The notes beneath the pieces were generated by a model. The model worked only from the letters and a program-made list of their open reading frames with translations. It did not search any database and was not told the origin of the DNA. The position numbers were made by a program, and so were the translations under genes. Below, piece after piece: positions 20,712 through 47,371 of a stretch of DNA of 48,115 bases. The DNA comes from Bacteroidia bacterium (GTDB lineage: Bacteria; Bacteroidota; Bacteroidia; B-17B0; Aurantibacillaceae). Location: positions 1 through 48,115 of the forward strand of contig JANYIQ010000040.1 of assembly GCA_025362575.1 (NCBI GenBank), in the 5' to 3' direction. Each line of letters opens with the position of its first letter. Position 1 is the first letter of the stretch.

Positions 20712-21208
20712 AATAAATAATTTAATGACCAAATAATTTTTGAGCCATTTTTAATGCTGGTCTTTACACAAAAAATGACTAGACATTGGACACATGAAAA
20801 GAAATAACGAGGGCGATTTAATTTTTGATTTGAGTTTGGAAAGAAACTTCCAGATTAGGTTAGATAGTTTAGGATAAAAATTTAGGATTGAAGATTCTAG
20901 ATTTGGATAATGATTTAGGTATAATTCTTTAGGTTTTTGTAGCCTTTTGTTCCAGTGGCGGCTTCTGGTGCTATTTATTTTCAGTAATTCAAAGTACATG
21001 CCTCAAATTTATGAAAGGTTTATTACATGATAAAATCCCTCACTCATTAATAGATTGTCTTCACGAACTTTAATACCTTAACCACCCCCTAAAAATTTAA
21101 AAGCCTTTATTTAGAACAAAATATTCATTATTTAACCAAGCTTTCACATGCAAATTAACTGCAAATTTTGCCTCTCCGAACCCCAGTAGCTCCAGCGAAT
21201 GCTGGTTG
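20712..21208. other. Leader of the DUF3987 gene with TTTAGG repeats, and right end of element A
   Basis: TTTAGG occurs at 20868, 20881, 20914 and 20928. On the minus strand a TAAATTTG box lies at 21004-21011. An 82-codon minus-strand frame (20751-20999) crosses the repeats; its residue pattern follows the repeat and I do not call it. At 21150-21175 GCAAATTAACTGCAAATTT gives two GCAAATT direct repeats near the att site. Confidence 0.35.
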
Positions 21209-21271
21209 CAACTGGATAGAGCACCTGACTACGGATCAGGAGGTTTAGAGTTCGAATCTCTACGAGACCAC
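21209..21271 (+). repeat. Middle att site: 63-base copy of the tRNA-Arg 3' part
   Basis: The 63 bases are identical to 12619-12681: the D-loop, anticodon arm, T-arm and 3' acceptor strand. The 5' acceptor strand is absent, so the copy is not a functional tRNA. Upstream, TAGCTC (21187-21192, as in the tRNA D-stem) is separated from the copy by a small hairpin, CCAGC-GAAT-GCTGG (21192-21205). It marks the junction between the two tandem elements. Confidence 0.85.
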
Positions 21272-22792
21272 TTGTAGGGAAAGCGTTTCAGAAATGGAAC
21301 GCTTTCCTTTTTTATTGCCCTGCAATTGCCTATCAGACAAGCAAATCAGACTAACAACTTCATTTATTTTAGTGGTTCGATACTTATTATTTTCAAAAGT
21401 CAAGCCCTCTGGGAATATCGAACCAATTATCTTACGTTTTACTTCAGTATCTCCACTTATATAGTACTTATCTATATTTGTAAAGAGCATTGTACAAAAA
21501 TTAATCTGCTTTGTGAAGTCTTCATTTGACACTCTTAATTGACTTTCTTGTAAAGACAAGCGGTTTATTGTTTCCTCTATATCAATTCTCATTTCTTTAT
21601 ACTCACCTGAGGAAATTTCGCCATCTAACATTAAGGCTCTTGCATTTTTCAAACGCTGGGTTTGCTTTTCTATTTCCTTGGCAATCTCAATTAGTTGTTC
21701 CTTGCCTTTTTTGTTATTACCGTGTAATAATTCTTTCAATTTGAGGGCATAAATTTGCCCCGCTCCTGAATCTATTTTGAATATTCTAAGAACATCCATA
21801 AAAGTATCATTTACAAGGTCGGCTTTTTGTCTTTCTTTGCACCCTTTACTGCAATGGTAGTAAAAGAATTTTTTGCCAGTGCGACTTGTGGAAGCAGAGG
21901 CTGTTAAATTACTTTTGCATTGAGGGCAAATTAGAAAGCCACGCAAAGGAAATTCAATCCTCATAGTTAAATTTTTCGCAGGTGTTTTCTTTTTACGACC
22001 CTCTAAAATATCTTGTACATTATAGAATAAACTTTCATCAATTATTGGTTTGTGGTCTCCTTGCACCCATTCGAGCGGTTCATCTTTATATGCAGGAACG
22101 CAAACTTTTCCGATGTATCCTTTATTTCTAAGCATTACCCAAAAACCATTACGACTAATCTTTAATCCTCTTTTGTTCATTAACTTTCTGAGTTCCTCAA
22201 TTTGGTAAGTTTCAGAAGCGAATAATTCAAAAGCCTCTTTTATAAGGCTCTCTGTTGCTCCACTTTCAGGGATCATAATCGGGCGGTTGTTTTCATTTCT
22301 TGCGTTTTTATATCCACGCAAACAACTACCAATCCAACGCCCCTCTTTTTTTGCTCGACGTACTCCGTGAAAAATATTTAAGGCTCTTCGGTCATTATCA
22401 ACTTCGGGGGCGGCCAAATAAACCGCTAACATTATTTTGCTTTCAGGAATTTCAAAATTCAAAGGCTGTTCAATTGCTTGTGGTTCCACTCCATAATCAC
22501 GAAGTTTTTTAATTGCTATATAAGCCTCTGCAATATTTCGTGAAAATCTATCCCACTTAATAAATAGCATTACGTCAACAAGCCCCCTGTTTTTCTTTAT
22601 GAACGCCAAAATGTTTAACCACTCAGGGCGGTTAAAATTTTTACCACTTTCGTCTTCATGGTAAATCCCTACAATATCAATATTGGAATTTTCACAATAC
22701 TTTATTAATCGTGCCTTTTGGTCGGCAGGACTGTATCCGTCATTTTGTTCATCGGTACTTACCCTAATATATAGTATCGCTTTTTGCTTCAT
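21260..22792 (-). CDS. Large serine recombinase of element B
   Basis: A 510-residue site-specific recombinase. The N-terminal resolvase domain has the catalytic Ser in YIRVSTDEQ (Ser12) and the motif KWDRFSRN (about 82). A recombinase domain follows at about 160-270 (VRRAKKEGRWIGSCLRGYKN). A zinc ribbon at about 285-315 has CPQCKSNL and HCSKGCKE, then a coiled coil at about 355-420. The last codons (LQVVS-stop) are read from the tRNA remnant, so the stop codon comes from the att site. It probably moves element B. A small gene lies just upstream. Confidence 0.93.
   Translation of the reverse strand: MKQKAILYIRVSTDEQNDGYSPADQKARLIKYCENSNIDIVGIYHEDESGKNFNRPEWLNILAFIKKNRGLVDVMLFIKWDRFSRNIAEAYIAIKKLRDYGVEPQAIEQPLNFEIPESKIMLAVYLAAPEVDNDRRALNIFHGVRRAKKEGRWIGSCLRGYKNARNENNRPIMIPESGATESLIKEAFELFASETYQIEELRKLMNKRGLKISRNGFWVMLRNKGYIGKVCVPAYKDEPLEWVQGDHKPIIDESLFYNVQDILEGRKKKTPAKNLTMRIEFPLRGFLICPQCKSNLTASASTSRTGKKFFYYHCSKGCKERQKADLVNDTFMDVLRIFKIDSGAGQIYALKLKELLHGNNKKGKEQLIEIAKEIEKQTQRLKNARALMLDGEISSGEYKEMRIDIEETINRLSLQESQLRVSNEDFTKQINFCTMLFTNIDKYYISGDTEVKRKIIGSIFPEGLTFENNKYRTTKINEVVSLICLSDRQLQGNKKGKRSISETLSLQVVS
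21278..21313 (+). terminator. Terminator behind the middle tRNA copy
   Basis: GGAAAGCGTTTC pairs with GGAACGCTTTCC (12 bp, one wobble) around the loop AGAAAT, followed by TTTTTT and ATTG. The stem differs from the terminators at 12692 and 47372 but the loop and tail are the same. It lies inside the 3' coding part of the serine recombinase on the other strand. Confidence 0.75.
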
Positions 22793-22828: not shown

Positions 22829-23065
22829 TTATTCGGACTTATTTCCTTTGTTAATATTTTTAACCTTTTTTGTTAATTGTTTTTCCAATTCGGTAATCTC
22901 CTCTGAAGTTTTGCCATTTAAAAACTCCACGGTCATTTCTGCGTATTGAAAAATCCAAGCCCGAATTTTTAAAATTTGCTCATCAGTATATTTTTTGCCG
23001 TTTTGATTTAAAATTTTTCTACAAACGGCTAGCGAAATATTTTCACTTTCAGAATTCGGATTCAT
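22829..23065 (-). CDS. Small protein upstream of the serine recombinase
   Basis: A 78-residue helical, charged protein from ATG at 23065 (MNPNSESENISLAVCRKILN, then KYTDEQILKIRAWIFQYAEM, and a Lys-rich tail). The frame extends 27 codons further upstream, but into a hairpin region, so the shorter start is better. Similar short genes commonly precede Bacteroidota recombinases of this type. The role is unknown; a directionality factor is one idea. Confidence 0.6.
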   Translation of the reverse strand: MNPNSESENISLAVCRKILNQNGKKYTDEQILKIRAWIFQYAEMTVEFLNGKTSEEITELEKQLTKKVKNINKGNKSE

Positions 23066-23456
23066 AACTGTAAGAATTATCCGTTTGCATCTTTTTACGC
23101 AAACGGCTGTAAACAAAGGCACCCCGGAGGTGCATTTATACAGCAAAGCATCGGTTTAAGATCGGAGGTTTTATACAGCTAAAACGTTTGACGGAAAAAT
23201 TTCAGGGTAGAAAGTACTTTTTTCGAGAATCCTATTCGTGTTATACGATGTAACTTGTTTAGTCGTTGCGTTGAATTGAAATAATTTGTCGGAACAATTT
23301 GTTTGGTGTTGATTGATCGAGATTGGTCGACTTTTATATTTTCCGATGTGAAATCATTTTTATTTCGATGAGAAATCAAAATATTTCATCAACATTACAT
23401 TACTGTATTATTAGGGAATCAACAATAAGCTTAATGCAAAACACCAACTAAATACA

Positions 23457-24294: not shown

Positions 24295-24696
24295 ATGACT
24301 AAGAATCAAGAAATGCAAATGATGCTATATGTTTGCAGAATAGCTGAACATTATGGCTTAAAAGAATCAGAATATCTTACTTTTCAGGAAAGAGATGTTT
24401 TGCTTAATAAATTAAAGAAGATTAACCATCCAGCTTGGCTTGTGATTTATGAATTTGTTGAAAGTTGTACTGAATTGGAGAAAGCAAGAACAGATGATTT
24501 TACAAAGAAAGTGAATTTAGGAGTTTGGCAAGGAAGTATTACAATAGCCAGCGAAGATTTGATTGGTTCAGCATTAAGGTTAGTAGATTTTTGCTTAGAT
24601 AACAAGATATCACTGAAGGATCTTACAATTATTAATTGGAGCCATAAAAAAGCCCCCATTAATAATAATGAGGGCTTCAGCTATGAGAAAAATTAG
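24295..24696 (+). CDS. Hypothetical helical protein (element B)
   Basis: A 133-residue soluble, mostly helical protein (MQMMLYVCRIAEHYGLKESE, HPAWLVIYEFVESCTELEKA, SALRLVDFCLDNKISLKDLT). It is not recognised. Its last 16 codons overlap the intrinsic terminator of the convergent minus-strand block, so its C terminus (HKKAPINNNEGFSYEKN) is shaped by that hairpin. Confidence 0.6.
   Translation: MTKNQEMQMMLYVCRIAEHYGLKESEYLTFQERDVLLNKLKKINHPAWLVIYEFVESCTELEKARTDDFTKKVNLGVWQGSITIASEDLIGSALRLVDFCLDNKISLKDLTIINWSHKKAPINNNEGFSYEKN
24645..24676 (-). terminator. Terminator of the 13-gene minus-strand block
   Basis: Read on the minus strand, AGCCCTCATT-ATTATT-AATGGGGGCT (one mismatch) is followed by TTTTTT. 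It lies about 60 bases past the amidohydrolase stop codon and inside the 3' coding part of the convergent plus-strand gene. Confidence 0.8.
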
Positions 24697-24734
24697 AATT
24701 TAGTACCTCTACTAAACTCTACGGTAAATATAAT

Positions 24735-25835
24735 CTATTTATTCATCTTGAAAAATTCAAAAGGGTTAGTCCCTGCAATCAGCCCGTAATTTTCCTCCCC
24801 GATACTTGCCCTTAAGTTGATTGAAAACTCCCTTTCAGAAACTTCTTGCTCCACCATATAGTAATCGGAACCGAAAAGGATCTTGTTTTTTATGGCTTCA
24901 TTCTGTAAGGTTATTTTTAATAAAGGACTAAGATCGGTTTTGTATCCGGTGTATGAAATATCTGCATATACATTGGGGTACTTTCTGACAAGCTCTCGTA
25001 CTTTCACAAACCAAGAAAGCTCACCATCTTCGTCTATTGTGTTTTGCAAATACTTATCCCATTCATCAGCGCCACCGAAATGCGCTAGATTAATTTTCAA
25101 GTTCGGGTATTTCTGCAAAACATACTCGTAATTGTCTGGGTCAGTGAAAATATCTGTGAAGTATTTGTTTTTTCGAGCCTTATTTATTTTTCCTGTGATA
25201 GGATGTTTTCGCATTTCGTCTGTAATTTTACCCTTGTAAAATATTCCACCACGAGAGCAATGAGTTGTAATAGGAATGTTATTACTTTGAGCATAGGCAT
25301 AAACCTGATTTAACCTTTCGTCAAAAGGGTAATAGCCTAAAGGCGGGTAAAGCTTAATACCGGCAAAGTTCTCTTCCTCAATGTATTTTTGAATCAAAGA
25401 AAAAATATCGGGTCTTTCAGGGTGTGCGAAAATAAAGGGCAGGATTATTTCTTTGTAGGCAGGGTCTCTCTTAATGACCGCTAATTCGTCTAATTGTGCC
25501 TTAAAGGGCTGTTTAACCGCTCCTGCCATCATATACTCCATATCCATAGAAAGCACGCAGAGCTTGGTTCCTTCAGGATAAAAGCCCTGAAGCAGTTTGA
25601 AGATTTCAAGCTGGCTTTTTAAATCTCCTATCGTTAAGAAGTAATGGTACTTCTTAATTATAAGTGCCAAGTCCTTTTTTCCAAAGAATGAAACAAGTTT
25701 TGATAAACCACCCGAAGTCTTCCTGCTTTCTAAAAGGGTTCCTAATGACCTAACCCAAAAGGGCACAAAATTATCAGGCACGCAGTTGCGTGTGAAAATA
25801 TGGGTATGGCAATTGATTATTTTTATATCGTTCAT
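24735..25835 (-). CDS. Amidohydrolase (Amidohydro_2-like TIM-barrel metal hydrolase)
   Basis: A 366-residue enzyme with the metal-site pattern of the amidohydrolase superfamily: NCHTHIF at the N terminus (HxH), GIKLYPPLGY mid-protein, ITTHCSRGG and INLAHFGG (His ligands), and KILFGSDYYM (the Asp). It probably hydrolyses or decarboxylates a small molecule; the substrate is unknown. It is the last gene of the minus-strand block, 29 bp after the LPD1-like gene and just before the block terminator. It may be cargo. Confidence 0.82.
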   Translation of the reverse strand: MNDIKIINCHTHIFTRNCVPDNFVPFWVRSLGTLLESRKTSGGLSKLVSFFGKKDLALIIKKYHYFLTIGDLKSQLEIFKLLQGFYPEGTKLCVLSMDMEYMMAGAVKQPFKAQLDELAVIKRDPAYKEIILPFIFAHPERPDIFSLIQKYIEEENFAGIKLYPPLGYYPFDERLNQVYAYAQSNNIPITTHCSRGGIFYKGKITDEMRKHPITGKINKARKNKYFTDIFTDPDNYEYVLQKYPNLKINLAHFGGADEWDKYLQNTIDEDGELSWFVKVRELVRKYPNVYADISYTGYKTDLSPLLKITLQNEAIKNKILFGSDYYMVEQEVSEREFSINLRASIGEENYGLIAGTNPFEFFKMNK

Positions 25836-25864
25836 AAAATTTAAGTTTTTGTTAAACTCTCCAG

Positions 25865-27139
25865 TTAAATTCTTTTTTTGATTCCGTTGATGAGGGCATC
25901 AAAATCAGCTTCCAGTTTTTTCATTTCGCTAAGACTGAGATATAAGTCAAGATCATATTTAGTTTCAGCCAGGAATATGTTTTTGTACTTCTTCTTTTGC
26001 ATCTTAAAATGAACATACACTTCAAAAGCTCTTGCGAAGATTTCATTTCGGCGAAAGAAATAATCCGTTACTCCGTACTTACCCTTTACTTTTAAAAGGC
26101 GCTGATAAAATGGAGTATGGGTAGTATCATTTTTCCAAATGATCTTGTAAAGCAACCTTTCCATTAATCCTTGCAGGGAATTTGCCTTCAATAGCTTTTT
26201 GTCGGGTTTAATTCTTGCACTTCTTGCACCCGTCAAAGCACCACTATTGGCTTTTTCAATAAACATACCTCCGTAATAATCCAAAGCGTGTCCGTATTCG
26301 TGTGCTAGAGAACCAACACCTCCTGAAGCGGTAAGTAAATCTGATCGGTCGAAGCCTCTTTTTGAAGTGCTTCCTTTCTTTGGTCGCTTGTATCGAGTTA
26401 AATTGATTGCGAAAGTGCTTTGTTCAAAATGTGCAGAGGCGGTTCCTCTGCCTCTTGCTCCAAATGCAATGGTTATTTTGTTTCTTAGTGAAATTTGTTT
26501 TGGCGAGAAATTTAAAATATGGTACAGGTCGAATAACGAGAGTCCTAATCCTGCCAAATAATTCGAGCGATCTTGTTGAGAAAGCCAGTTACCAAATTCT
26601 ATGCCACGCAGGCCATAAAACTCTTGTACATAGTCAATGTCTTTGTAATCGTAAGACCTTGGGATTTCAGCACCGGAACGGATCTGTTTATTATGGGCAT
26701 CAAAAACCAATTTGATCTTTTTGCTATTCCAATATTGATCGGCTCTGCTTCCTGTATAAGGGATTTCTCCCTCGTCGACCAATTTTCCCAAGTTTTCAGT
26801 TTTATTCGGCAGTTTTATTTTTCCTAAACGATCTTTGGGTTTTTTCGGTGTCCGTTTTATTGGCCCATGATGTTTACGGTGTTTTTCATAATAATCTTCA
26901 AGGTCTTGCTCGGTACAATCTATAATGACTTCTATTTCCCCGTGAAAGATCGATTTTTTGTAACCATAATCCAGCTTATCAAAAATGTATTCTAATTTTA
27001 AGTAGGCTTCTTCATCTTTGCCTTTGTTTAAATACATTTCAATCAAAACGGTATCTCTTATTGCTTTAAATTGCTCGGTGGTTCTTGTTCCTCCAAACTG
27101 TAAGAATTTTTCCATGAGTTTTTTTACTGAAGTTTCCAT
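25865..27139 (-). CDS. LPD1-like zinc metallopeptidase-domain protein
   Basis: A 424-residue protein. The central region matches the pattern of LPD1 (large polyvalent-protein-associated domain 1): GIEFGNWLSQQDRSNYL, SLFDLYHILN, KITIAFGARGRGTASAHFEQ, FAINLTRYK and GVGSLAHEYGHALDYYGG with an HEYGH zincin site (about residue 255). LPD1 usually occurs inside giant polyvalent proteins of phages and conjugative elements; here it is short and nearly alone. ATG at 27139 is preferred to the TTG 27 codons upstream, because that upstream stretch also holds the shifted tail of the preceding gene. It may process or cut proteins of the block. Confidence 0.72.
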   Translation of the reverse strand: METSVKKLMEKFLQFGGTRTTEQFKAIRDTVLIEMYLNKGKDEEAYLKLEYIFDKLDYGYKKSIFHGEIEVIIDCTEQDLEDYYEKHRKHHGPIKRTPKKPKDRLGKIKLPNKTENLGKLVDEGEIPYTGSRADQYWNSKKIKLVFDAHNKQIRSGAEIPRSYDYKDIDYVQEFYGLRGIEFGNWLSQQDRSNYLAGLGLSLFDLYHILNFSPKQISLRNKITIAFGARGRGTASAHFEQSTFAINLTRYKRPKKGSTSKRGFDRSDLLTASGGVGSLAHEYGHALDYYGGMFIEKANSGALTGARSARIKPDKKLLKANSLQGLMERLLYKIIWKNDTTHTPFYQRLLKVKGKYGVTDYFFRRNEIFARAFEVYVHFKMQKKKYKNIFLAETKYDLDLYLSLSEMKKLEADFDALINGIKKRI

Positions 27140-27164
27140 GATCAATATTTTTAATTTTTCTGTT

Positions 27165-27281
27165 TTAATGTTTTTGTTTTGCTTTTTTCGGTTTATTGCC
27201 TGAAAAAGAATTGAAACCAAGCCATAAGCCTAAAGCTGATAGGATGGTAAATAAGATCCCTAATTGTAAAGGCTTTGGACT
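27165..27281 (-). other. Frameshifted membrane tail of the peptidoglycan hydrolase
   Basis: In the -1 frame after the A9 tract (27281-27289) 38 codons stay open: SPKPLQLGILFTILSALGLW, then LGFNSFSGNKPKKAKQKH and a stop. The peptide is one clear transmembrane helix followed by a basic tail. It has no ATG, GTG or TTG before the helix, so it can only be made as an extension of the hydrolase (EIAKKK joined to SPKP). The expressed form would be a C-terminally membrane-anchored enzyme. Confidence 0.55.
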
Positions 27282-27826
27282 TTTTTTTTAGCGATCTCAA
27301 GAATTAGGGTGGCTGATTTGATAATAAGCTCTTTATACTTAACTCTGTTATCTCCGTTCTTCTCGCTGATATAGGGCGAGTAGGCTATCTTTTGTGCATA
27401 CTCACTTACATTGTTACTTACTTTGGCCGCCTCCTTGTAATAGCTTGTAATGATGCGGGCGAAATCCGAAAATCCGTCTTCAACCGTTTTGTAACTACGG
27501 AATTTTAATCCTGATACTTTTGATACACGGCTTTCACCTTTCCAATACTCATTGGGTTTACCGAAAGCGGTAACGCCAAAGAAATTGTGATTCTGTGTGG
27601 CTAGTTGTGAAGTTCCCCATCCTGATTCAACAGAGGCTTGCGCCAAAATGATTAGTGGATGTATCCCGAATTTCTTACCCACCTTTACAGCGGCTTCATA
27701 GAAATTCATTACAAACTCAACTTGTTTACTCCCTTTAGGACTTGTGCCTAAAGTTTGAGGTATGATCTCAGGAGCGCCTTGCAGTCCCAATATGGTGGGA
27801 ACACGCAAGAAATATTCTTGTTCCAT
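27260..27826 (-). CDS. Peptidoglycan hydrolase, FlgJ-type glucosaminidase
   Basis: A 188-residue enzyme of the mannosyl-glycoprotein endo-beta-N-acetylglucosaminidase domain family (cell-wall glycan cleavage). The signature is HPLIILAQASVESGWGTSQLATQNHNFFG with the catalytic Glu in SVESGWG (about residue 67). It is followed by FRSYKTVEDGFSDFARII and SPYISEKNGD. There is no signal peptide. Just before the stop an A9 tract (GCT AAA AAA AAA) would allow a -1 slip that swaps the last six residues (VQSLYN) for a membrane helix. The likely role is lysis or wall penetration by the element's particle or complex. Confidence 0.85.
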   Translation of the reverse strand: MEQEYFLRVPTILGLQGAPEIIPQTLGTSPKGSKQVEFVMNFYEAAVKVGKKFGIHPLIILAQASVESGWGTSQLATQNHNFFGVTAFGKPNEYWKGESRVSKVSGLKFRSYKTVEDGFSDFARIITSYYKEAAKVSNNVSEYAQKIAYSPYISEKNGDNRVKYKELIIKSATLILEIAKKKVQSLYN

Positions 27827-27850
27827 TTTTCAAGGTTTTAAAGTTTTGTA

Positions 27851-28822
27851 TCATAGACTTCTGTCTCTGACTACAGCCAACTCCGCTTTTATCCAGCGTA
27901 CCAATCCTTGAACGGTTCTAATTTTTATGAAATTTCCTTTCCCGGTATCTAAGGTCATAATCGGGAAACCTAATATTATGTTCTTTGGGGCTATGCCCGT
28001 TTGTTTAAATGACTCGTCATAAACAAGGCAGACACTTGTAGTAACGACTTCTTGCTTTGGTTCTTCAATCTGATCAATTTCATTCTCGCCTGTTATCCCT
28101 TCTAATACCTCCAAAGGGATTTTACCCTGTTTTTCTCTTTTCTTCTTTTCATCACCCGAAATAAGTTCAACTTGGCTCTTGGCAACGTAATAGGTTTTCT
28201 TTTCGCCTTTGGTGGTCAGTGTCCAAAACTCTATGAATAATACTTTGTTGATTTCATCATAGGAAAACTTGCCAGTACTGGCTCCAATGATCTTTCCTTT
28301 CGGCACAAGTTTTACAATGTTATTTTTAAAGGCGTGTTGCCACTCATACCTTGCAGTTTTCCTCACATTGGCATCTGATGTTGTAATGACCCATTTATTA
28401 GCAGGTACTTTATCGCTCTTTGGAGCATAATAATAGGAACCTGTTTTACCTTTTGAGGCAAGTGATAAGAATTTTTGATAGTCTTCAGGGCTTATCTCGC
28501 CTTGAAGCTCATCATATAAATCTGAACCTTCAGTTTGGTCTTTAAAGTGTTTGGCCACACTATCTAGGTCGGTGATTTCTGAGGCTAATTTGAAAATGGC
28601 CTCTTTATCGGTGGTATCAAATTTTCTCATCCACCAAAACCCGGATGGGTTGATCGCTTGTCTTAAACCTACTGCTTGTCCTGAAGATGGGTCTGTGTCC
28701 ATATCGGCTTCAGAGCCTCCTTTTTTAAACTTAGAAATTGCTTCCTTACCTAAAAAAAATAAAAACACTGTTCCGCCAACTTTTAGCAGTGCATCTATAT
28801 TATTATTTTCAGAGAGTTTCAT
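27851..28822 (-). CDS. Membrane-anchored protein with two possible SH3-like domains
   Basis: A 323-residue protein. It has an N-terminal membrane helix (about residues 12-27: LLKVGGTVFLFFLGKEAI), a helical region at about 50-130 and then two beta-rich segments resembling SH3b domains. One spans about 145-225 (WVITTSDANVRKTARYEW, LVPKGKIIGASTGKF) and the other about 270-320 (NIILGFPIMTLDTGKGNFI, KIRTVQGLVRWIKAEL). SH3b domains bind cell wall, which would suit its place next to the peptidoglycan hydrolase. The family is not recognised. Confidence 0.55.
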   Translation of the reverse strand: MKLSENNNIDALLKVGGTVFLFFLGKEAISKFKKGGSEADMDTDPSSGQAVGLRQAINPSGFWWMRKFDTTDKEAIFKLASEITDLDSVAKHFKDQTEGSDLYDELQGEISPEDYQKFLSLASKGKTGSYYYAPKSDKVPANKWVITTSDANVRKTARYEWQHAFKNNIVKLVPKGKIIGASTGKFSYDEINKVLFIEFWTLTTKGEKKTYYVAKSQVELISGDEKKKREKQGKIPLEVLEGITGENEIDQIEEPKQEVVTTSVCLVYDESFKQTGIAPKNIILGFPIMTLDTGKGNFIKIRTVQGLVRWIKAELAVVRDRSL

Positions 28823-28842
28823 TTTTTCGCTAATTATTTCTT

Positions 28843-29019
28843 TTAACTCAATAATTTTTTAGCGGTCTTTACAATCGACGGATTTGCCTTTAGTATTTTA
28901 GCTAAGTCCTTTAAATCCTTATCAGACAAACTATTTTTTATATCCGCTAAAGCCTTTACAAGCTCTATGGCTTCCTGCTCACTTGAAGCATCAATGCCTA
29001 TTTTAATTTCAAAAATCAT
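28843..29019 (-). CDS. Small helical protein of the minus-strand block
   Basis: A 58-residue protein starting at ATG 29019 (MIFEIKIGIDASSEQEAIEL) and ending in a Lys-rich helix (AKILKANPSIVKTAKKLLS). It lies between two block genes in the same orientation with about 50-base gaps, and its codon use resembles theirs. The function is unknown. It is too short for most ORF filters. Confidence 0.6.
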   Translation of the reverse strand: MIFEIKIGIDASSEQEAIELVKALADIKNSLSDKDLKDLAKILKANPSIVKTAKKLLS

Positions 29020-29068
29020 TTTGTTTTTTATTTGAGTTTGTTTTTACTGTTAAACGATCATTTTTATT

Positions 29069-30091
29069 TTAGGAACTATCGTCTAAATCAGTTTCCTCTT
29101 TTTCTGAATCCTCTGAGTTATTATTGGTTTCAACCTTGTTAGGTTTGATCTTTGTCTTTTTTGTGTCAGCTTGTTTCTTTAACTGAATATATATTTCCTG
29201 TAAAACAGGGACATTATTTCCTGCTAATTGAACTATTTCAAAGTATAAGCGTAAAACAGCATCATCCGAGGCAAGTAAAAAATCATTAATGTGTTTTATT
29301 ACCTGTAATCTTATTTTTTGTTCTTTGGTCACTTCTTGTTTGGGGCTGTCCTCAGAAATGATGCTGGCGGTTGATTTGGTTTCTTCTTTTGTTTCTCTGG
29401 TTTCCGCTTCTGTTTCTTTGCTTGGATCAATGCCAAGTAGTCCATTTAGAACTTCTTGTTTGGCACCGAACACATTTTTTAAGATACCAAGGCCAAAATC
29501 ACTTTTAGCAAAGCTTTCAATGGCATTTGAAGTAACGGTTCCGAGCGAAACATTAGCAAAACTGTTCTTCTTGGCCTTTTCGCCTTTCTCCAGTTCTGAT
29601 TCAAGTTCCTGTATATACTGTTTTTTCTTTTTGTTCTTCTTTCTTAAAATCTCAAGTTCATATTGCAGGCGCTTATTTTCAAACTCAAGCATCCAAACTT
29701 GCTTTTCCTTTTCAGCCAAAGTGTAAAAATGCTTTTCCGTGCTTACTAAGCTTTCAGGATTGGTAAATTCGAGTTCCGCTTTTTCTGAAGGATTTCCAAG
29801 GGTTAAACTGGAATCTTTTTTTACCTGTACTTTAATGGTTTGAAAGGGTGTTTTTGTTCTTATGCTTTTTGAACTGTATAATTCAATTATTAAGGCGGAT
29901 AGATCATATCGTGTAAGATATTGGATAACCGTTTCATAAAAAGTGCTTCCTTCTTCTTTGTTTACAAGCGGAGTTTGTTTTCCCATATATTCAACCTTAA
30001 CCGAAAAATAGGTAGGCTCTTTCTTAGATTGCCTGTCTTTTATGGCATCATTGATGAATTTGATTTGGTCGTATGGTGTTTGCGCTTGCAT
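29069..30091 (-). CDS. Coiled-coil protein of the minus-strand block
   Basis: A 340-residue protein. The N-terminal alpha/beta domain (about 1-115) includes TYFSVKVEYMGKQTP. A Lys/Glu-rich coiled coil spans about 125-175 (EFENKRLQYELEILRKKNKK). A short hydrophobic segment with DFGLGILKNVFGAKQEVLNGLLGI follows, then an acidic linker and a helical domain (about 255-305). The acidic, Ser/Thr-rich C terminus resembles a flexible tail. It could be a scaffold or spike-stalk protein; that is inference. Confidence 0.55.
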   Translation of the reverse strand: MQAQTPYDQIKFINDAIKDRQSKKEPTYFSVKVEYMGKQTPLVNKEEGSTFYETVIQYLTRYDLSALIIELYSSKSIRTKTPFQTIKVQVKKDSSLTLGNPSEKAELEFTNPESLVSTEKHFYTLAEKEKQVWMLEFENKRLQYELEILRKKNKKKKQYIQELESELEKGEKAKKNSFANVSLGTVTSNAIESFAKSDFGLGILKNVFGAKQEVLNGLLGIDPSKETEAETRETKEETKSTASIISEDSPKQEVTKEQKIRLQVIKHINDFLLASDDAVLRLYFEIVQLAGNNVPVLQEIYIQLKKQADTKKTKIKPNKVETNNNSEDSEKEETDLDDSS

Positions 30092-30114
30092 TTTAATATC
30101 CTGTTAATGTCTCT

Positions 30115-30486
30115 TTAATGTATCACTGCTTTTATAAATTCAACCGGCCTTTGAATCTCTATTCCCGCGGGGTCAACTGTGCTTATGCTCCAATTGGTTC
30201 CGCCAAACTGTATAAGTTGGATCATGCCTGAAAATTCCTGTGGATTATTATCCGTAAAATCATCTGTATTAAATGTTCCTGTATCTGAAATAATTACAAA
30301 GCCAAAGCAGGATTGATAATTCACTAAATAATAATATTCATTATAGGCTTTTATGATGATGTGCTTATCTGCTCTTTCCTGATGAGTTCCAACCACACTT
30401 ACCGATTCAATATGATATTCATCGGGAGTTTTGCCGATCTCTCTCATTCTTTGCTTGGCTAGTTCTATTGCAGTCTCGTAGTTCAT
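30115..30486 (-). CDS. Hypothetical protein of the minus-strand block
   Basis: A 123-residue soluble alpha/beta protein: an N-terminal helix (NYETAIELAKQRMREIGKTP), then strands (HIESVSVVGTHQ, KHIIIKAYNEYYYLV and CFGFVIISDTGTF). It contains no signal peptide or known motif. It starts 11 bp after the preceding gene, so co-transcription is very likely. Confidence 0.55.
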   Translation of the reverse strand: MNYETAIELAKQRMREIGKTPDEYHIESVSVVGTHQERADKHIIIKAYNEYYYLVNYQSCFGFVIISDTGTFNTDDFTDNNPQEFSGMIQLIQFGGTNWSISTVDPAGIEIQRPVEFIKAVIH

Positions 30487-30497
30487 TTCTTTGTTTA

Positions 30498-30890
30498 TTA
30501 TAACTTTTCTTCGTAGTGCAGGTAAATTGTAATCGTAAAGTCTGTTAGGCTTGGGTCTCTATTAAAGAAGAAACCTTGTATATATGCACTTGTTTTTACT
30601 TCCTCATCAAAAGGGATCGGGTGAGCTTGATGGCGAATGCGATTTGTATTAATTACCGCCGTTTGAATACTTTTAAAAATTCCTTCGTTTAAAAAAAGGG
30701 AAATATAGCCTACTACTTTTTCGGTGCTTAAAGAATTGCAGGTAAAATATAATCCCTTCAATACGCCAAAGTGCAATGGTAATTTGTTTTCAATTTTAAC
30801 AATGAATTTTCCTGATGCTACTGTTACTTGAAAAACGTAACATTTTGTCGAAGAAAAATTATAGGGTTTATATGTGTCGGCAATTTTCAC
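30498..30890 (-). CDS. Small beta-rich protein 1 of the minus-strand block
   Basis: A 130-residue protein made almost entirely of predicted beta strands (CYVFQVTVASGKFIVKIENK, VVGYISLFL, SAYIQGFFFN), ending DFTITIYLHYEEKL. The neighbouring 121-residue protein ends in a similar strand, NVTISLRLEND. Such short all-beta proteins fit a jelly-roll or accessory surface subunit, but no family is recognised. Confidence 0.55.
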   Translation of the reverse strand: MKIADTYKPYNFSSTKCYVFQVTVASGKFIVKIENKLPLHFGVLKGLYFTCNSLSTEKVVGYISLFLNEGIFKSIQTAVINTNRIRHQAHPIPFDEEVKTSAYIQGFFFNRDPSLTDFTITIYLHYEEKL

Positions 30891-30922
30891 TTGTGCGTTT
30901 CAATTTTGATCTTAATCGTTCT

Positions 30923-31288
30923 CTAGTCGTTTTCAAGTCTAAGAGAAATCGTAACATTGTAAGGGTAGGTCGCTCCGGTATTAATATCAGTATAGCTTCC
31001 TTTCACGCTACTACCGCCACCTTTTTCATTTAGCTCGTGGTATTCATAACCAAATGGCACTTGTTCTCTGAACAGCAAACGCAGAACCTCAAATTTTTCA
31101 GGAAATAACTCAACAGTATTAATATCAAGTTTTATGGCACTGAATTTATTCAAGGAATCGGTCAGGATAATATTTACTCCCGTTACTTTCTTATAAAGTT
31201 TGTCGGTCTCAGCATCAATAGGAACTATTTGTCCTACGGAATTTACCTGAATGGTAATGTGCTGATATTTTATTTTTGGCTGGCTCAT
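30923..31288 (-). CDS. Small beta-rich protein 2 of the minus-strand block
   Basis: A 121-residue all-beta protein (KYQHITIQVNSVGQIVPI, TGVNIILTDSL, AIKLDINTVELFP, GATYPYNVTISLRLEND). ATG at 31288 is used; the longer frame would cross the hairpin at 31311-31325. It resembles its 130-residue neighbour in size and in its final strand. It may be a subunit of a symmetric assembly, by inference only. Confidence 0.55.
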   Translation of the reverse strand: MSQPKIKYQHITIQVNSVGQIVPIDAETDKLYKKVTGVNIILTDSLNKFSAIKLDINTVELFPEKFEVLRLLFREQVPFGYEYHELNEKGGGSSVKGSYTDINTGATYPYNVTISLRLEND

Positions 31289-31310
31289 TGTAGTAAATTT
31301 TAAATTCGTT

Positions 31311-31459
31311 CCGATTCGCAATCGGTGACCCCAGTAGGCAGGGCTTTGGGAAGAATGTTTTTAGTATTTTTTTGAGAGAAACGTTCTTTTAAAGATTCCT
31401 TTACAGAATTAGTTAAACTCTCACATTACCTCTTAAATGAGCTTCCCTTAAGCCCTGCC
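31311..31459 (-). ncRNA. Structured intergenic RNA after the 235-aa gene
   Basis: A near-perfect 17-bp stem joins 31337-31353 and 31442-31459 (GGCAGGGCTT pairs with AAGCCCTGCC and extends through GGGAAG/CTTCCC), enclosing about 88 bases. A second hairpin, CCGATT-GCG-AATCGG (31311-31325), lies 22 bases upstream of the next start codon. There is no T-tract on the minus strand, so it looks like a processing, stability or attenuation structure within the block transcript. Confidence 0.5.
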
Positions 31460-31484
31460 GTTTTTAGTGACTGGAGAAAATATT

Positions 31485-32192
31485 TTAGAATGGAATTACG
31501 CTTGTTCCGATCAAAACCACTTTTAAGAAACTTGAAGCGGCAGCAGCAGCGGCAAATTTCACAGGCATTTTTATTTCAACTTGCGGTTCAATCACTTTGG
31601 TTGAACTCAATTTGTAATAACCGATTTGTAAATCGTTACGACCGAAAGTGTCAAATACATCAGTAGAAATTAATCCCACTAATTTTTTGTTTCCTGCTTC
31701 AAACTCAAATTCACCGTTTCTGATGATTGGAGCAATATGCGTGAAATCTGCGGTAAACATACCCGTCAAGCTTTCTGCGTAGGTCATACGGATCGCTGAC
31801 ATTAAAAACCAATTGTCTTTTTCAAGTTTGGCGGTGGCTAAGTTTCCTAAACCCACGTTTTTATTGTCCGTTCCTTGAAAAACGTCTATTTGGTTTTTTG
31901 TTGCAATATCTTTTACCACATAAAAACGGGTGTCGGCTAATTGCAAGCGTTTTTTCAAAAGACCATCGCGGATTTCCTGCGGTAATTGTTTGAATTTGGA
32001 TTCAAACTCTACACGGGAATTATTATCACTAATGGTCGGCGAAGGGCGTTGTAAAAGTGATTTTATTACACGGTTTTGTTGGTCTTTTGGGACTCTCGAA
32101 ATACGACCTAGTAATTCGGCAAAGTCAGGGCTATCCCCTAATAGGTCTGCGGTATTACTGTACTCGCTCCCTAGCAAATCATCTGTTTCCAT
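31485..32192 (-). CDS. Candidate major structural protein of the minus-strand block
   Basis: A 235-residue protein of unknown family. A disordered acidic N terminus (DDLLGSEYSNTADLLGDSPD) is followed by a helix, then a mostly beta domain (TRFYVVKDIATKNQIDVFQG, IRNGEFEFEAGNKKLVGLIS). An Ala-rich hydrophobic C-terminal segment (MPVKFAAAAAASSFLKVVLI) completes it. Its gene alone in the block is set off by strong hairpins on both sides, as for a highly expressed cistron, so a capsid-like or major subunit role is plausible. This is inference; no homology is recognised. Confidence 0.5.
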   Translation of the reverse strand: METDDLLGSEYSNTADLLGDSPDFAELLGRISRVPKDQQNRVIKSLLQRPSPTISDNNSRVEFESKFKQLPQEIRDGLLKKRLQLADTRFYVVKDIATKNQIDVFQGTDNKNVGLGNLATAKLEKDNWFLMSAIRMTYAESLTGMFTADFTHIAPIIRNGEFEFEAGNKKLVGLISTDVFDTFGRNDLQIGYYKLSSTKVIEPQVEIKMPVKFAAAAAASSFLKVVLIGTSVIPF

Positions 32193-32260
32193 TTGAATGT
32201 TTTTTAAGTGTTATTTATATTTTTTAGTTTCTTTTTTAATTTTTCCAATTATTTTTAGAG

Positions 32261-32291
32261 AATCGAATGGGGCTGATGACCCCATTCGATT
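32261..32291 (-). promoter_or_regulatory. Perfect 12-bp hairpin between the 181-aa and 235-aa genes
   Basis: AATCGAATGGGG and CCCCATTCGATT form a perfect stem with a 7-base loop, beginning directly after the 181-aa gene's stop codon. It lacks a T-tract on either strand, so an RNA-processing or 3'-stabilising hairpin is likelier than a full terminator. Confidence 0.7.
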
Positions 32292-32837
32292 TTAAATGAT
32301 GCCTTTAATATCATCCTCGGTTGTCGATGAATTATAACCCAAACCTTTAACATCGGTTTGATCGCTGTTATATCCCAAGCCCTCTAAATCAGGCAAGTTT
32401 ATTTTAACCGTTGGGGCATCTTCCATACTGTAAGACTTTACAGGCAGAGCGTTTAAGCCGAAGCTTCCTAACTCCAATGGTGGTTTATCGTTTTCGGTAT
32501 AATACGTTGTGGCGATCCCTTCAAAGCCTGTTAGCTGTTCTTTAACGAAAGGAATTAGTTTCAACCCTTCAAAGGCTCCTGACACAGTTAAACCATATCC
32601 AAAGGCTTTGGCGTAAATTTCGTTGTTGTCGGTAGCAGAAGTAATTAATAAGCCTCCACTTCCAAGCACTATCGGTTTGGCGTATTTTACAAAGCTTTCT
32701 GCTTCAGGGAATTTTTCTGAAAGCATATCTAAGCCCTTAGATATTCCCACTCCACTCACAAAGCCAAGTATCACCATAGAAGTTTTTTTCACTTCTTCGC
32801 CGACCTGCTTTTTAATATTTTCAATGCGCTTTTTCAT
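32292..32837 (-). CDS. Integral membrane protein of the minus-strand block
   Basis: A 181-residue protein with about three hydrophobic segments: SMVILGFVSGVGISKGL (about 20-37), AKPIVLGSGGLLITSA (about 53-68) and AKAFGYGLTVSGAFEGLKLI (about 75-95). The C-terminal tail has two GLGYNS copies (EGLGYNSDQTDVKGLGYNSS). The same LGY/GLG words occur in its operon neighbours. The amphipathic, glycine-rich segments resemble membrane proteins of lipid-containing phages in style, but no family is recognised. Confidence 0.55.
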   Translation of the reverse strand: MKKRIENIKKQVGEEVKKTSMVILGFVSGVGISKGLDMLSEKFPEAESFVKYAKPIVLGSGGLLITSATDNNEIYAKAFGYGLTVSGAFEGLKLIPFVKEQLTGFEGIATTYYTENDKPPLELGSFGLNALPVKSYSMEDAPTVKINLPDLEGLGYNSDQTDVKGLGYNSSTTEDDIKGII

Positions 32838-32891
32838 TTTATTTAGTTTTAAATTCTTAAACTTTAAATTTTGCTTCCTTTGGTTCTGACT

Positions 32892-35018
32892 TTACAAGGT
32901 TATTTGTGCCCCGCCTTTTCCTCCTTTGCCACCCCTGCCACCTTTTCCTTTTTTGCGAGGCGATCTTCTGATTGTTTTTGGCGGGTGATTTTTAGCCTTT
33001 CCCGATTTCTTTTTTCCTTTTCGGGAAGCACCTGATAAACCTTTTTTGTGTTTACCCATTGTGGTCAGTTCGTATATTCCGAATATGATTCCTCCGGCTA
33101 TTAAAGCACTTGCTCCTTTATTTTCACTTACCCATGCCTTGGCTTTGTCAAAAACACTTTCCGTGGTTCTTATCGCTGAACTTTCAGGAACTTCGATTTC
33201 GTTTTTAGTGGGTAGATTATCTTTTGGGTTAGTTGTTTCAACTGCGTCAGTGGTTTTAGTATCCGCTTCCTTGTTATCGGCCTCGCTGCTATCTTTATTT
33301 AAACTTTCTCCACCTCCCGAATCGCCTCCGCTTTCCGAAGGGCTTTTTGGTTCGCTTGATGAGGGTTCATCATTAGGCATAGCACTCGGTCTTTCTTCTT
33401 TTGTGTCATTGCCATCACCGTTTTCATCACCACCGCCTGAAGAATCTGATGCGTTTTGTGCATCTGCGCTTTCGGTTTCCTTATCTGCTTTCTTCTTTTT
33501 AAGTTTTAAATAGATCGGTTTAACGTTGGCAATTAATTTTTTGTAATTGATCTTCTTTAAAAAGCCGACCACCTTTTTAATGAAGGGCAATGCTGTGGTA
33601 ACTGCTGCACCTGCCGAAGCAGCTACAACGTAACCTAAGTCCTCAGAAGTTTCAATTCCGTTTAATCCGCCTGCTCGTCCTGTGAGAATTGCCTTTTTAA
33701 GGTTCTCGGCTTTGCCTTGAAGTACATTAACAAATAGTTTTTCGGTTTTGTTTAATGCTTCACGAGCGTGTTGCCACTCTTCAGCGTTAAATCCGTGATC
33801 TCTTGCTTCGCTTTCGGTTAAATAGCCCCATTTTAATTTTTCGGCCATTTTTAAGAAGTTGGTTTTCATTGCAGCCAACATTCCACCCCTCGCAGTAATT
33901 GTGATTGGATTTACTCGAATCAATTTTTTTGCGATCTTTTTAATTCCACTGCCTGCTTTTTTAGCGGCTTGCTTCACTTTTTTAAAGAAACCTTTCTTCG
34001 CTTTTACTTTTCCAAGTAAAGCAACCCCTCCCAGACCTTCCACGCCATAGTAAAGACCAGTTTCTTCATACCCGTCAACCATACCGCTTAATCCGTTCAG
34101 ATAGTTCAGTTTTTCTTCCTGTTCTTCCAAGATTCCTAAAGCTTCGTCTCGTTTATCGGTATCCCAATATTTTATGGCATAATTCACCATTCCTAAGAAG
34201 CTTTCAGGATCTTCCACTTGTTTTACAATGTGTGGGTAGCGATGTACCGCATCACGGGTTCTGATTAAGTGGTTACGGATGGCGTTTAATTCTTGGCCTC
34301 TGGTCGGAATTCTTCCCAAACCTTCAAGTTCGTCGATCTCTCCGAAGTCAATACCTGATAATATTCCTGATATTTCACTGAGTTCATCATCACCGATGCC
34401 ACTTAGTACGGATACATCTATCCCGTTTAAATTTGATTTATTCATGATTAAAAAATCTTTAGTTTCTATAGGTTCTTTTTCTGTATCGTATTGGTCAAGG
34501 ACTCCGTCAATGGTGTAATAATTTTTACCTGTGCCGGGAACGATGACGTAAACGTGTTGGAAATAATCTTTTCCTTTGTATCGTGCTATTCTTAAATAGT
34601 GCGGTATGTTTAAATTGTAAAGGATCGTACTGGCGAATATTGAAAAGTCATCGCAATCAATTCCTCTGCTTGTTCTTAGTTTCCAACTCAATGCTGGAGT
34701 TCTAAGTTGTTCCTGCCCTTCATCATCTTCTCTATATTTTATATGAGAAAATAAAAAGTTCCAAATCTTACCACACGTTTCATATATGTTTTTGCCTTGT
34801 AACACCTTTGCGAGATCAGCGGTTTGCCATGCACAGGATTTTATTAGCTTTTCCATTTCGCCGACTGTTCCGTCAACGGTTGCATTGCGTCTTACCACTT
34901 CTTCGTGCCAGTCGGGAGCGGGGATAAGTCCCCTAAACTCGTCCCCGTTCCTTATGGCTCTTAAAGGATTGTTATTGGCTGTATAACCTAAGTTTTCTAT
35001 TTTAAATTCTTGTTCCAT
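32892..35018 (-). CDS. Transglutaminase-like multidomain protein of the minus-strand block
   Basis: A 708-residue protein. At about 60-180 it has a transglutaminase-like cysteine-protease fold with Cys in RGIDCDDFSIFAS, His in FQHVYVIVPG and Asp in YYTIDGVLD. A linker follows with repeated LNGI/LSGI/GLG words (about 195-330). A basic amphipathic region (KKVKQAAKKAGSGIKKIAKK, about 345-365) precedes a helical domain and hydrophobic segments near 465-485. A long acidic Ser-rich spacer (about 515-620) leads to a membrane helix (ASALIAGGIIFGIYELT) and a very basic Gly/Lys-rich C terminus. It could be a membrane-spanning particle protein with wall-modifying activity; that is inferred. Confidence 0.65.
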   Translation of the reverse strand: MEQEFKIENLGYTANNNPLRAIRNGDEFRGLIPAPDWHEEVVRRNATVDGTVGEMEKLIKSCAWQTADLAKVLQGKNIYETCGKIWNFLFSHIKYREDDEGQEQLRTPALSWKLRTSRGIDCDDFSIFASTILYNLNIPHYLRIARYKGKDYFQHVYVIVPGTGKNYYTIDGVLDQYDTEKEPIETKDFLIMNKSNLNGIDVSVLSGIGDDELSEISGILSGIDFGEIDELEGLGRIPTRGQELNAIRNHLIRTRDAVHRYPHIVKQVEDPESFLGMVNYAIKYWDTDKRDEALGILEEQEEKLNYLNGLSGMVDGYEETGLYYGVEGLGGVALLGKVKAKKGFFKKVKQAAKKAGSGIKKIAKKLIRVNPITITARGGMLAAMKTNFLKMAEKLKWGYLTESEARDHGFNAEEWQHAREALNKTEKLFVNVLQGKAENLKKAILTGRAGGLNGIETSEDLGYVVAASAGAAVTTALPFIKKVVGFLKKINYKKLIANVKPIYLKLKKKKADKETESADAQNASDSSGGGDENGDGNDTKEERPSAMPNDEPSSSEPKSPSESGGDSGGGESLNKDSSEADNKEADTKTTDAVETTNPKDNLPTKNEIEVPESSAIRTTESVFDKAKAWVSENKGASALIAGGIIFGIYELTTMGKHKKGLSGASRKGKKKSGKAKNHPPKTIRRSPRKKGKGGRGGKGGKGGAQITL

Positions 35019-35040
35019 TTTAATGGAGTATTTTTTTCTT

Positions 35041-35523
35041 TTAATTCAACGCTGTAAATAATTTTATTATTTCCGCGAACTTAAAATCTTTTTTATCGCT
35101 TACCGAAAAACCATTGGCTGTGGATTCAACTTTTAAGCTGATGGCCTGATCGGAAAATTTCTTACTGAATACTGCTCCAACTAATGCGGGTAGGTTGCTA
35201 AAAGGTATTCTTATGTTCACATTTTTTATTACTGTCCTTGAGTTACCCTTTACATTTATCATTTCTCCACTTGGCAGACTGTTAGCGACTTCTCTTTCAT
35301 TGTAGTAGGCTGTTAAGTATGGTTTTTTGATATTTAAATTATTCATCGTCGGATTATCAATTGCGATCGTGAGTGAAATTTCAAATTCGCTTCCAACGCT
35401 TCTGAACCTGTCAAGGTTCAATATCTTAATTGAAGACTTGTTTCCTGCTTTTGAAGTAGCAACCGCATTTGCGACTGCTATAGCACTAACACCTAAAATG
35501 AATATGATATATAAGGGATTCAT
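35041..35523 (-). CDS. Membrane-anchored LEA14-like protein
   Basis: A 160-residue protein with an N-terminal membrane helix (about residues 2-23: NPLYIIFILGVSAIAVANAV) and one beta-sandwich domain: FEISLTIAIDNPTMNNLNIKKP, an NP-type turn, YNEREVANSL and VIKNVNIRIPFSNLPAL. The pattern is typical of LEA14/WHy domains (Ig-like fold). Its start overlaps the stop of the upstream 68-residue gene by four bases, implying coupled translation. The role is unknown. Confidence 0.6.
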   Translation of the reverse strand: MNPLYIIFILGVSAIAVANAVATSKAGNKSSIKILNLDRFRSVGSEFEISLTIAIDNPTMNNLNIKKPYLTAYYNEREVANSLPSGEMINVKGNSRTVIKNVNIRIPFSNLPALVGAVFSKKFSDQAISLKVESTANGFSVSDKKDFKFAEIIKLFTALN

Positions 35524-35726
35524 AATTGTTTTCTTTTTGTAATTTGTTTTTTGTGTTTTTGAGAGTAACGGTCGGCGAGAATTTTAAATCCAAACCAAAT
35601 AGCACTTCCAATGATTGCCTTTAGGGCGTAGTCGATTATGCCGATATAGTCTATATTGGCTAATTGAATGATGACGTAAAGGATGAATGAACTATAATTT
35701 CCTGTTACAAGCTGGTGAAGTTTCAT
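35520..35726 (-). CDS. Small holin-like membrane protein
   Basis: A 68-residue protein with two hydrophobic segments (NYSSFILYVIIQLANIDYIG and LKAIIGSAIWFGFKILA) and a basic C terminus (DRYSQKHKKQITKRKQL). This is the usual outline of a small holin or membrane adaptor. It is the first gene of the block proper and overlaps the LEA14-like gene by four bases. No homology is recognised. Confidence 0.55.
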   Translation of the reverse strand: MKLHQLVTGNYSSFILYVIIQLANIDYIGIIDYALKAIIGSAIWFGFKILADRYSQKHKKQITKRKQL

Positions 35727-35911: not shown

Positions 35912-36133
35912 TTAGACCACCACAACATCAGAGGGTAACTGAATCAGCTCGAAAATCTTCTTGACTTGATCGTAGTCGAAATAGTAGCCTTTTAATTTTC
36001 CAATCTTTTTGATGTGCTGTTTTATACGTTTGCGCATCATGTATTGGGATACCTTGTAAACGTCCGCCAGTTCCTTAAGCTTATAATCTCGTATACTAAC
36101 GACTCTTTTTTTGAAACTCTCATGGGTTTCCAT
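35912..36133 (-). CDS. Small HTH protein (excisionase/DUF4248-like)
   Basis: A 73-residue DNA-binding protein. The HTH is visible in DYKLKELADVYKVSQYMMRKRIK, followed by LKGYYFDYDQVKKIFELIQLP, a layout I associate with DUF4248-type and MerR-like small regulators of Bacteroidota elements. It lies 185 bp upstream of the minus-strand block in the same orientation and is probably its activator, repressor or excisionase. Confidence 0.65.
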   Translation of the reverse strand: METHESFKKRVVSIRDYKLKELADVYKVSQYMMRKRIKQHIKKIGKLKGYYFDYDQVKKIFELIQLPSDVVVV

Positions 36134-42515: not shown

Positions 42516-42521
42516 AGTATA

Positions 42522-46409: not shown

Positions 46410-46485
46410 TTTTCTGTGGGGTTTTATGTTAATAGTTGTTTTATTCAATTTTATATAAAAAAAGGGGGCGTAACAACTGTGCCGC

Positions 46486-46596
46486 CTACACCGAGGAACC
46501 GCGAAGCTCCCATAGTAAGTCAGCAAGTGATACGCCCTTTCGGGCGCTCTCTTACTGAATGCTTACTATTAAAAAAATTCGCGGTTTTCGGTGTAG
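46486..46596. repeat. Long nested hairpin upstream of the SBBP operon
   Basis: There are four nested arm pairs. CTACACCGA(G)GAACCGCGAA (46486-46505) pairs with 46578-46596, with one bulge and one mismatch. ATAGTAAG (46512-46519) pairs with CTTACTAT (46562-46569), TCAGCAAG (46520-46527) with CTTACTGA (46551-46558, one mismatch), and CGCCC-TTTC-GGGCG forms the tip (46533-46546). It could be a MITE-like or recombination-site element, or a structured leader. It is not a simple terminator. Confidence 0.65.
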
Positions 46597-47076: not shown

Positions 47077-47199
47077 ATTCTCTCTTTTAAATAGTTTGTT
47101 AAGTATTATAATGCAATGCAATCCTTTAGTGTAAATAGTAGGTTTATTTCTTTATCCAATTGGTTCGGTTTTTTGTCGGTTGAGTCCACAGATGAATGT

Positions 47200-47228
47200 A
47201 AAATGCCAACCCAGAGGGTTGGCATTTT
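47200..47228. terminator. Bidirectional terminator-like hairpin
   Basis: AAAATGCCAACCC and GGGTTGGCATTTT form a perfect 13-bp stem with a 3-base loop (AGA), with A and T runs at the two sides. It lies near the right end of element B; a weaker inverted repeat (TTTTCAG/CTGAAAA) follows to about 47281. Confidence 0.7.
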
Positions 47229-47345
47229 TATTTTCAGGGAATGCGTTGAAAGTTTTCTTTCATAAGCAGACGCTGAAAATAAAAAACCGATGCGAAGCAG
47301 CGGATTTTGCATTTTGACTTTTGGTTAGGAGAGATAACCGCAGGT

Positions 47346-47363
47346 AATCTCTACGAGACCACG
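47346..47363. other. attR: right end of the island
   Basis: AATCTCTACGAGACCACG is identical to 12665-12682. Upstream, GAGATAACC-GCA-GGTAATCTC forms an imperfect hairpin over the junction. Downstream sequence resembles that after the intact tRNA, so the ancestral tRNA terminator region is here. Confidence 0.8.
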
Positions 47364-47371
47364 GATAACAA

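Follow-up and report, generated by a model that had tools for sequence, protein, structure and literature searches.

Salisaeta icosahedral phage 1 (SSIP-1) is a tailless, membrane-containing phage of Salisaeta whose genome hardly resembles anything in GenBank (PMC6356626). FLiP and PhiCjT23, tailless lipid phages of Flavobacterium, come from the same phylum as the DNA examined here (PMC9719478), and some viruses possess two major capsid proteins (PMC4958249). The present analysis concerns a stretch of 48,115 nucleotides from a Bacteroidia bacterium (assembly GCA_025362575.1, contig JANYIQ010000040.1), hereafter the window, and within it a block of co-directional, minus-strand genes at 24735-35726. 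The preferred reading, held with a probability of roughly 80%, takes the block for an operon of virion-structural and lysis genes that belongs to an integrated, tailless phage-like element with SSIP-1 as a relative. The element most likely belongs to a largely unrecognized family of integrated tailless phage-like elements in Bacteroidota, and SSIP-1, an isolated membrane-containing phage, is most likely the closest known relative of the block.

The connection to SSIP-1 was traced through the 708-amino-acid (aa) protein of the block (family C1, 32892..35018), which has hydrophobic segments, a basic C-terminal tail and a transglutaminase-like domain (Pfam DUF553, 8e-6). A tblastn search with this protein against 50,697 phage records returned SSIP-1 gp34 as the sole match (5e-3), while a hidden Markov model profile of family C1 matched gp34 at 1.5e-15 and hhalign aligned the two at 96.6% (6e-10). 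SSIP-1 gp34 is itself a transglutaminase-like virion structural protein. Among the C1 relatives, the motif DCD is present in 73 of 75 and [QD]H[VI]Y in 71 of 75. Additionally, fuller relatives of the block encode homologs of gp31, gp40 and gp43 (1e-47 for gp43), annotated in SSIP-1 as a GH108 endolysin, a structural RecA-like ATPase and a giant virion protein with a methyltransferase, respectively; the gp40 and gp43 homologs also occur in Persicobacter plasmids and are absent beside the window block. Three such circular plasmids, 47.6-53.2 kb in size, carry the block together with replication or ParA/ParB genes and collectively encode homologs of gp31, gp34, gp40, gp43 and gp56, forming a bridge between the block and SSIP-1. 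The match of SSIP-1 gp44 to the 181-aa protein of the block (E 0.019) is suggestive and not significant, and a search of viral contigs with gp45 matched SSIP-1 only. No paper on SSIP-1-like proviruses was found in a literature search, which reached few subscription journals.

A profile of the 235-aa protein family of the block, searched against GTDB contigs, identified 139 relatives, of which 80 loci were fetched. Every one of these carries a Bacteroidota name, and almost all show one gene order, which all-against-all clustering into families describes as C9-C3-C1-C11-C2-C6-C12-C8-C5-C7-C4, usually followed by C13, an amidase, C20 or a glucosaminidase, C14, C21, DNA methyltransferases and an ATPase. 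Because this order recurs in about 80 loci, it reflects more than chance; the homologs sit in an ordered block and are not scattered singly, and a serine recombinase lies downstream of it in G048, G035, G032 and G119. Of 87 genomes from the same family, 35 hold relatives of the 708-aa protein, and a single genome can show as many as nine matched segments, corresponding to about five loci. An even sample of 392 genomes of the phylum gave 3 matches, the window's own genome counted. Elements that are 80-91% identical internally lie between unrelated flanks. The lysis slot is occupied by non-homologous enzymes (amidase, glucosaminidase or GH108), as in phages. The viral contigs scanned contained no close relatives of the window's 235-aa and 708-aa proteins, and NCBIfam holds no model for ten block proteins.

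Structural prediction yielded two candidate capsid proteins. In family searches, the 235-, 130-, 132-, 323- and 340-aa proteins have no convincing Pfam or PHROG family match, and the 235-aa and 132-aa family profiles matched no PDB sequences. The AlphaFold (AF2) model of the 235-aa candidate major capsid protein (C2, 31485..32192), built from 68 sequences, has a predicted local distance difference test score (pLDDT) of 75.9 and a predicted template modelling score (pTM) of 0.64, and shows a helical N-terminus and one jelly-roll; where the sequence scores as hydrophobic, the model places a strand. Among solved structures it matches best the capsids of SPV1 (Sulfolobus polyhedral virus 1) and of viruses in the PRD1-adenovirus lineage, with VIA-align Z-scores of 9.1 for PBCV-1, 9.0 for EhV-201, 8.8 for SPV1, 8.7 for the Orf virus scaffold, 8.3 for Faustovirus, 8.1 for SGIV, 7.8 for SH1 and 7.7 for PRD1 P3; peptidylglycine monooxygenase is the main non-viral competitor (Z 7.6). 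The second candidate (C6, 30923..31288) has 121 aa from its ATG or 132 aa from a TTG at 31321, and its 132-aa AlphaFold (AF2) model (65 sequences, pLDDT 87.6, pTM 0.79) is an eight-strand jelly-roll whose matches are mixed, with Z-scores of 8.2 for EhV-201, 7.4 for HHIV-2 and 6.6 for SPV1. The adjoining 130-aa beta-rich protein (C35, 30498..30890) is, by sequence comparison, an adjacent paralog in one beta-rich family with C6 and C12 (hhalign C12-C35 90%, E 1.7e-6; C6-C12 84%, E 7.5e-6). Two predicted single-jelly-roll types (C2 and C6) and the C12/C35 paralog are candidates for a capsid role.

These results bear on an earlier note on this DNA, which had read the block as possibly encoding a tailless, membrane-containing particle resembling PRD1, PM2 and FLiP, and had looked to the fold of these proteins and to the grouping of their homologs for a decision. 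Neither check spoke against that reading: the jelly-rolls are indeed predicted, and the homologs keep together in an ordered block. The evidence thus favors a particle that is tailless and probably contains a membrane, its relative being SSIP-1 in place of the phages named; the PRD1/PM2/FLiP type carries two barrels per capsid chain, whereas the 235-aa and 121/132-aa models hold one each.

The one-directional, tightly packed layout described at that time holds throughout. The block comprises 13 open reading frames (ORFs) and a conserved 58-aa ORF, all intact in the window and mostly overlapping or separated by gaps of less than 50 bp, with 99 and 163 bp flanking the 235-aa gene. Upstream lies a 73-aa helix-turn-helix (HTH)-like small protein (35912..36133, minus strand) of family C0, which occupies the same upstream place in most relatives. 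The block then opens with a 68-aa holin-like protein with hydropathy peaks (C9, 35520..35726) and a 160-aa LEA14-like protein with an N-terminal anchor at hydrophobic residues 4-22 (C3, 35041..35523), both conserved in position. Between the transglutaminase-like gene and the 235-aa gene, a 181-aa membrane-like protein (32292..32837) fills the C11 slot that precedes the capsid-like gene and aligns with its subgroup relatives. Downstream of the beta-rich genes follow a 123-aa protein (C8, 30115..30486), a 340-aa coiled-coil protein (C5, 29069..30091), the 58-aa protein, found in 58 loci and missing from the earlier list of genes (C7, 28843..29019), and a 323-aa SH3-like protein with an N-terminal hydrophobic anchor (C4, 27851..28822), all conserved in relatives. 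The number of small membrane proteins had been somewhat overstated: hydrophobic segments are clear in the 68-, 160-, 708- and 323-aa proteins and weaker in the 181-aa protein.

The last three genes are a 188-aa endolysin-type glucosaminidase (C34, 27260..27826; Pfam PF01832 at 2e-21, PHROG endolysin families down to 1e-20), a 451-aa LPD1 zincin (C33, 25865..27220, likely ATG start at 27139; LPD1 at 7.5e-12) and a 366-aa amidohydrolase (C32, 24735..25835; Amidohydro_2 PF04909 at 6e-19) that is conserved only in the window's subgroup (loci L057-L059). The zincin also matches phrog_18947 (1.6e-18) and phrog_616 (4e-17) and resembles regions of phage polyvalent proteins. Pfam therefore agrees with the earlier assignments of the hydrolase, zincin, amidohydrolase and transglutaminase-like protein, and the reported lack of tailed-phage genes was borne out, as no terminase, portal, HK97 capsid or tail gene is hit in the block by Pfam or PHROG. 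The shared terminator proposed for the block end is plausible and unproven: the convergent genes are separated by a hairpin at 24692..24720 (minus strand) that has an AT-rich stem of 12 bp and, after it, a run of T, but its fold z is only -1.1 and a stricter terminator scan does not list it.

Based on these features, a mechanism can be proposed. The 235-aa protein and the paralogous 121/132-aa and 130-aa proteins would build a shell of single jelly-rolls, with the anchored 68-, 160-, 708-, 181- and 323-aa proteins embedded in or apposed to a lipid vesicle inside it. The transglutaminase-fold protein, whose Cys/His motifs are near-universal in relatives, would process or cross-link virion proteins and may contact DNA through its basic tail. 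The glucosaminidase would open peptidoglycan at entry or exit, while the LPD1 zincin may be a polyvalent-type protein delivered by the virion. In full relatives, an HTH-IrrE repressor opens the operon, and its far end holds a RecA-like ATPase together with either DNA methyltransferases or a polyvalent methylase/helicase; the ATPase would serve packaging or DNA handling. A serine recombinase lies nearby in several. Since it lacks ATPase and repressor, the window copy may be a reduced provirus, a satellite in need of a helper or a domesticated particle.

The fuller elements illustrate what the window copy lacks. On the complete chromosome G119, a run of about 26 kb comprises a serine recombinase, an ATPase, a 1729-aa methylase/helicase-type (polyvalent) protein, lysis genes, capsid-type genes, C10 and the C16 repressor, in which an HTH is joined to an IrrE (M78) domain; the run also contains an insertion-sequence-like insertion. 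Elsewhere, the shared unit from repressor to ATPase spans about 16-18 kb. No attachment (att) repeats were found for this shared unit, and no terminal direct repeats around the 18-kb units or the G119 element; an apparent insertion into marC in G119 was rejected, as marC reads through. In most relatives the ATPase lies downstream and is RecA/AAA_25-like, similar to SSIP-1 gp40. The packaging ATPase noted as missing from this copy is missing from its whole subgroup (L057-L060 and G034), in which the glucosaminidase, LPD1 and amidohydrolase genes replace the usual downstream genes and the repressor is lacking as well; L060 has also lost 5' genes. Ratios of nonsynonymous to synonymous substitution (dN/dS) between L059 and L060 are 0.03-0.11 over ten genes compared, which indicates that these genes are kept by selection. 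The copies of the window subgroup and G135 lack ATPase, repressor and methyltransferases and retain capsid-type and lysis genes; one genome of the G135/L091/L130 type contains two reduced copies, each flanked by genes of the host. Other contigs of the window's own genome carry fuller units, namely G000:C211, which has an ATPase, and C158, which holds block, lysis and methyltransferase genes and ends at a contig edge.

Several findings weigh against assigning the block to an SSIP-1-like phage element. ATPase, repressor and replication genes are all missing from the window copy, and the relatives commonly take the form of an 18-kb unit devoid of its own integrase or att repeats. Homologies to gp40 and gp43 concern widespread domains and therefore count for less, and hhalign did not connect the jelly-roll proteins by sequence with SSIP-1 gp45-gp47, of which gp45 and gp46 are structural proteins and capsid candidates. 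Fold Z-scores exceed the usual chance maximum by a modest margin only, and the folds therefore carry weight mainly in combination with the genetics; non-viral beta-sandwiches appear in the match lists as well and reach Z of about 7.5 for the 121/132-aa model. Only two IMG/VR contigs matched. The case is built from gene content, synteny, homology, predicted folds and purifying selection, from which particle assembly, the membrane and the roles of individual proteins are inferred.

Among the rival explanations, the reduced copies of the window subgroup and Cytophagales could have ceased to be viruses and be tailless capsids kept by the host, which lysis would set free to deliver an enzyme payload or cargo, much as tailocins and gene transfer agents do. 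The loss of ATPase, repressor and methyltransferases alongside retained capsid-type and lysis genes is consistent with this, as are the strong purifying selection, the conservation of subgroup-specific LPD1 and amidohydrolase genes and the many elements with no recognizable integrase nearby. Nevertheless, it is judged rather unlikely, because differing flanks, about five loci in some genomes and serine recombinases near several copies fit mobility, and no conserved chromosomal location was found. The proposal that reduced SSIP-1-like operons devoid of ATPase and repressor have become host-encoded delivery or killing particles in Bacteroidota, a tailless counterpart of tailocins, is likewise judged rather unlikely. 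Alternatively, the window element could be a satellite that makes its own shell and depends on a fuller SSIP-1-like provirus of the same genome for replication, induction and a packaging ATPase, a part that the units on the other contigs could play; this too is doubtful, as known satellites usually hijack capsids rather than encode a complete capsid operon.

Missing ATPase, repressor and replication genes, together with the 5' losses of L060, could also be read as signs of a functionless, decaying prophage remnant. That reading is improbable given the intact ORFs, the low dN/dS between subgroup members and the identical reduced gene set in several genomes. A non-viral, peptidoglycan-associated or envelope complex, to which the anchored proteins, the peptidoglycan hydrolase, the transglutaminase-like protein, the middling fold scores and the non-viral beta-sandwiches among the matches might point, is very improbable: the transglutaminase-like protein has a virion homolog in SSIP-1, the lysis slot is of phage type, and the block is found with replication genes on circular plasmids. 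The reading of the block as a phage-type structural and lysis operon is preferred.

Downstream of the block lies a 510-aa large serine recombinase (21260..22792, minus strand; Pfam Resolvase 1e-23, Recombinase 9e-10), adjoined by a 105-aa small protein of cluster N31 (22829..23146, minus strand) that also occurs beside serine recombinases in G035. The end of the recombinase overlaps a 63-bp exact repeat of a tRNA-Arg 3' end (21209..21271), which marks the boundary between a tyrosine-integrase element (12.7-21.2 kb) and the block-bearing segment. Three copies of this 3' end are present, at 12619-12681 and 21209-21271 (exact over 63 bp) and at 47346-47407 (partial, 90%, with the adjoining 45 bp). 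The exact pair encloses the 8.6-kb tyrosine-integrase element, so that two insertions apparently lie side by side in the island. A DUF3987 protein (19260-20732, 2.9e-42) lies inside that neighboring element. Two large proteins of secreted type, whose C-termini look like sorting signals, are encoded right of the block (40785-46526), probably by host genes. A stretch of about 150 bp at 47185-47352 is found again, with 77-79% identity, in several of the family's genomes.

Other observations concern the relatives. Many Chitinophagaceae-type elements (L061, L064, L077, L082, L099 and others) encode an additional protein between C2 and C6, lysozyme-like and about 180 aa long, with no Pfam match for the one tested, and L099 has a second C2 gene in tandem. 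The short motif L-[NSDEQ]-G-[LIVM], which resembles the adenovirus protease consensus, is 3.5-8 times commoner than in shuffled sequences in the unrelated families C1, C2, C5, C11, C13 and C24 (L057-L138). In some families the reversed motif used as a control is enriched as well; a role as a maturation-protease site was considered and, the controls being mixed, left as an observation.

A large group that appears related to SSIP-1 thus resides on chromosomes and plasmids of Bacteroidota, has candidate shell proteins and keeps a conserved gene order. Cultured hosts of full elements, such as Persicobacter sp. JZB09, P. psychrovividus, Chitinophaga eiseniae and Flavisolibacter nicotianae, could allow induction of a tailless phage lineage and a capsid structure. 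The question also arises of whether reduced copies have become tools of the host.

Compared with known systems, the block differs from tailed phages, whose terminase, portal, HK97 capsid and tail genes have no counterparts among its hits. FLiP and PhiCjT23 have double jelly-roll capsid proteins and small single-stranded DNA genomes, in contrast to the one barrel per model here. SPV1 is an archaeal virus with no sequence link, although its capsid aligns with the 235-aa model over 150 of 178 residues at a root-mean-square deviation of 3.8. The more than one kind of single-jelly-roll protein predicted for the elements may parallel the vertical single-beta-barrel viruses (P23-77, SH1, HHIV-2 and HCIV-1), and chains of SH1, HHIV-2 and HCIV-1 are among the fold matches; these viruses show no sequence similarity and infect other hosts. 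A packaging ATPase of the FtsK-HerA type would be expected of that group; the ATPase of the relatives here is RecA/AAA_25-like, and the window block has none. SSIP-1 differs in gene order and in capsid-type proteins with no detectable sequence link, and the window copy, which lacks the ATPase, shares with it by sequence only the transglutaminase-like protein. Even so, its host, a halophile, belongs to the same phylum or a neighboring one, its capsid proteins are thought to be single jelly-rolls, its circular 43.8-kb genome is near the Persicobacter plasmids in size, and homologs of its gp34, gp40, gp43 and gp31 are found in the elements.

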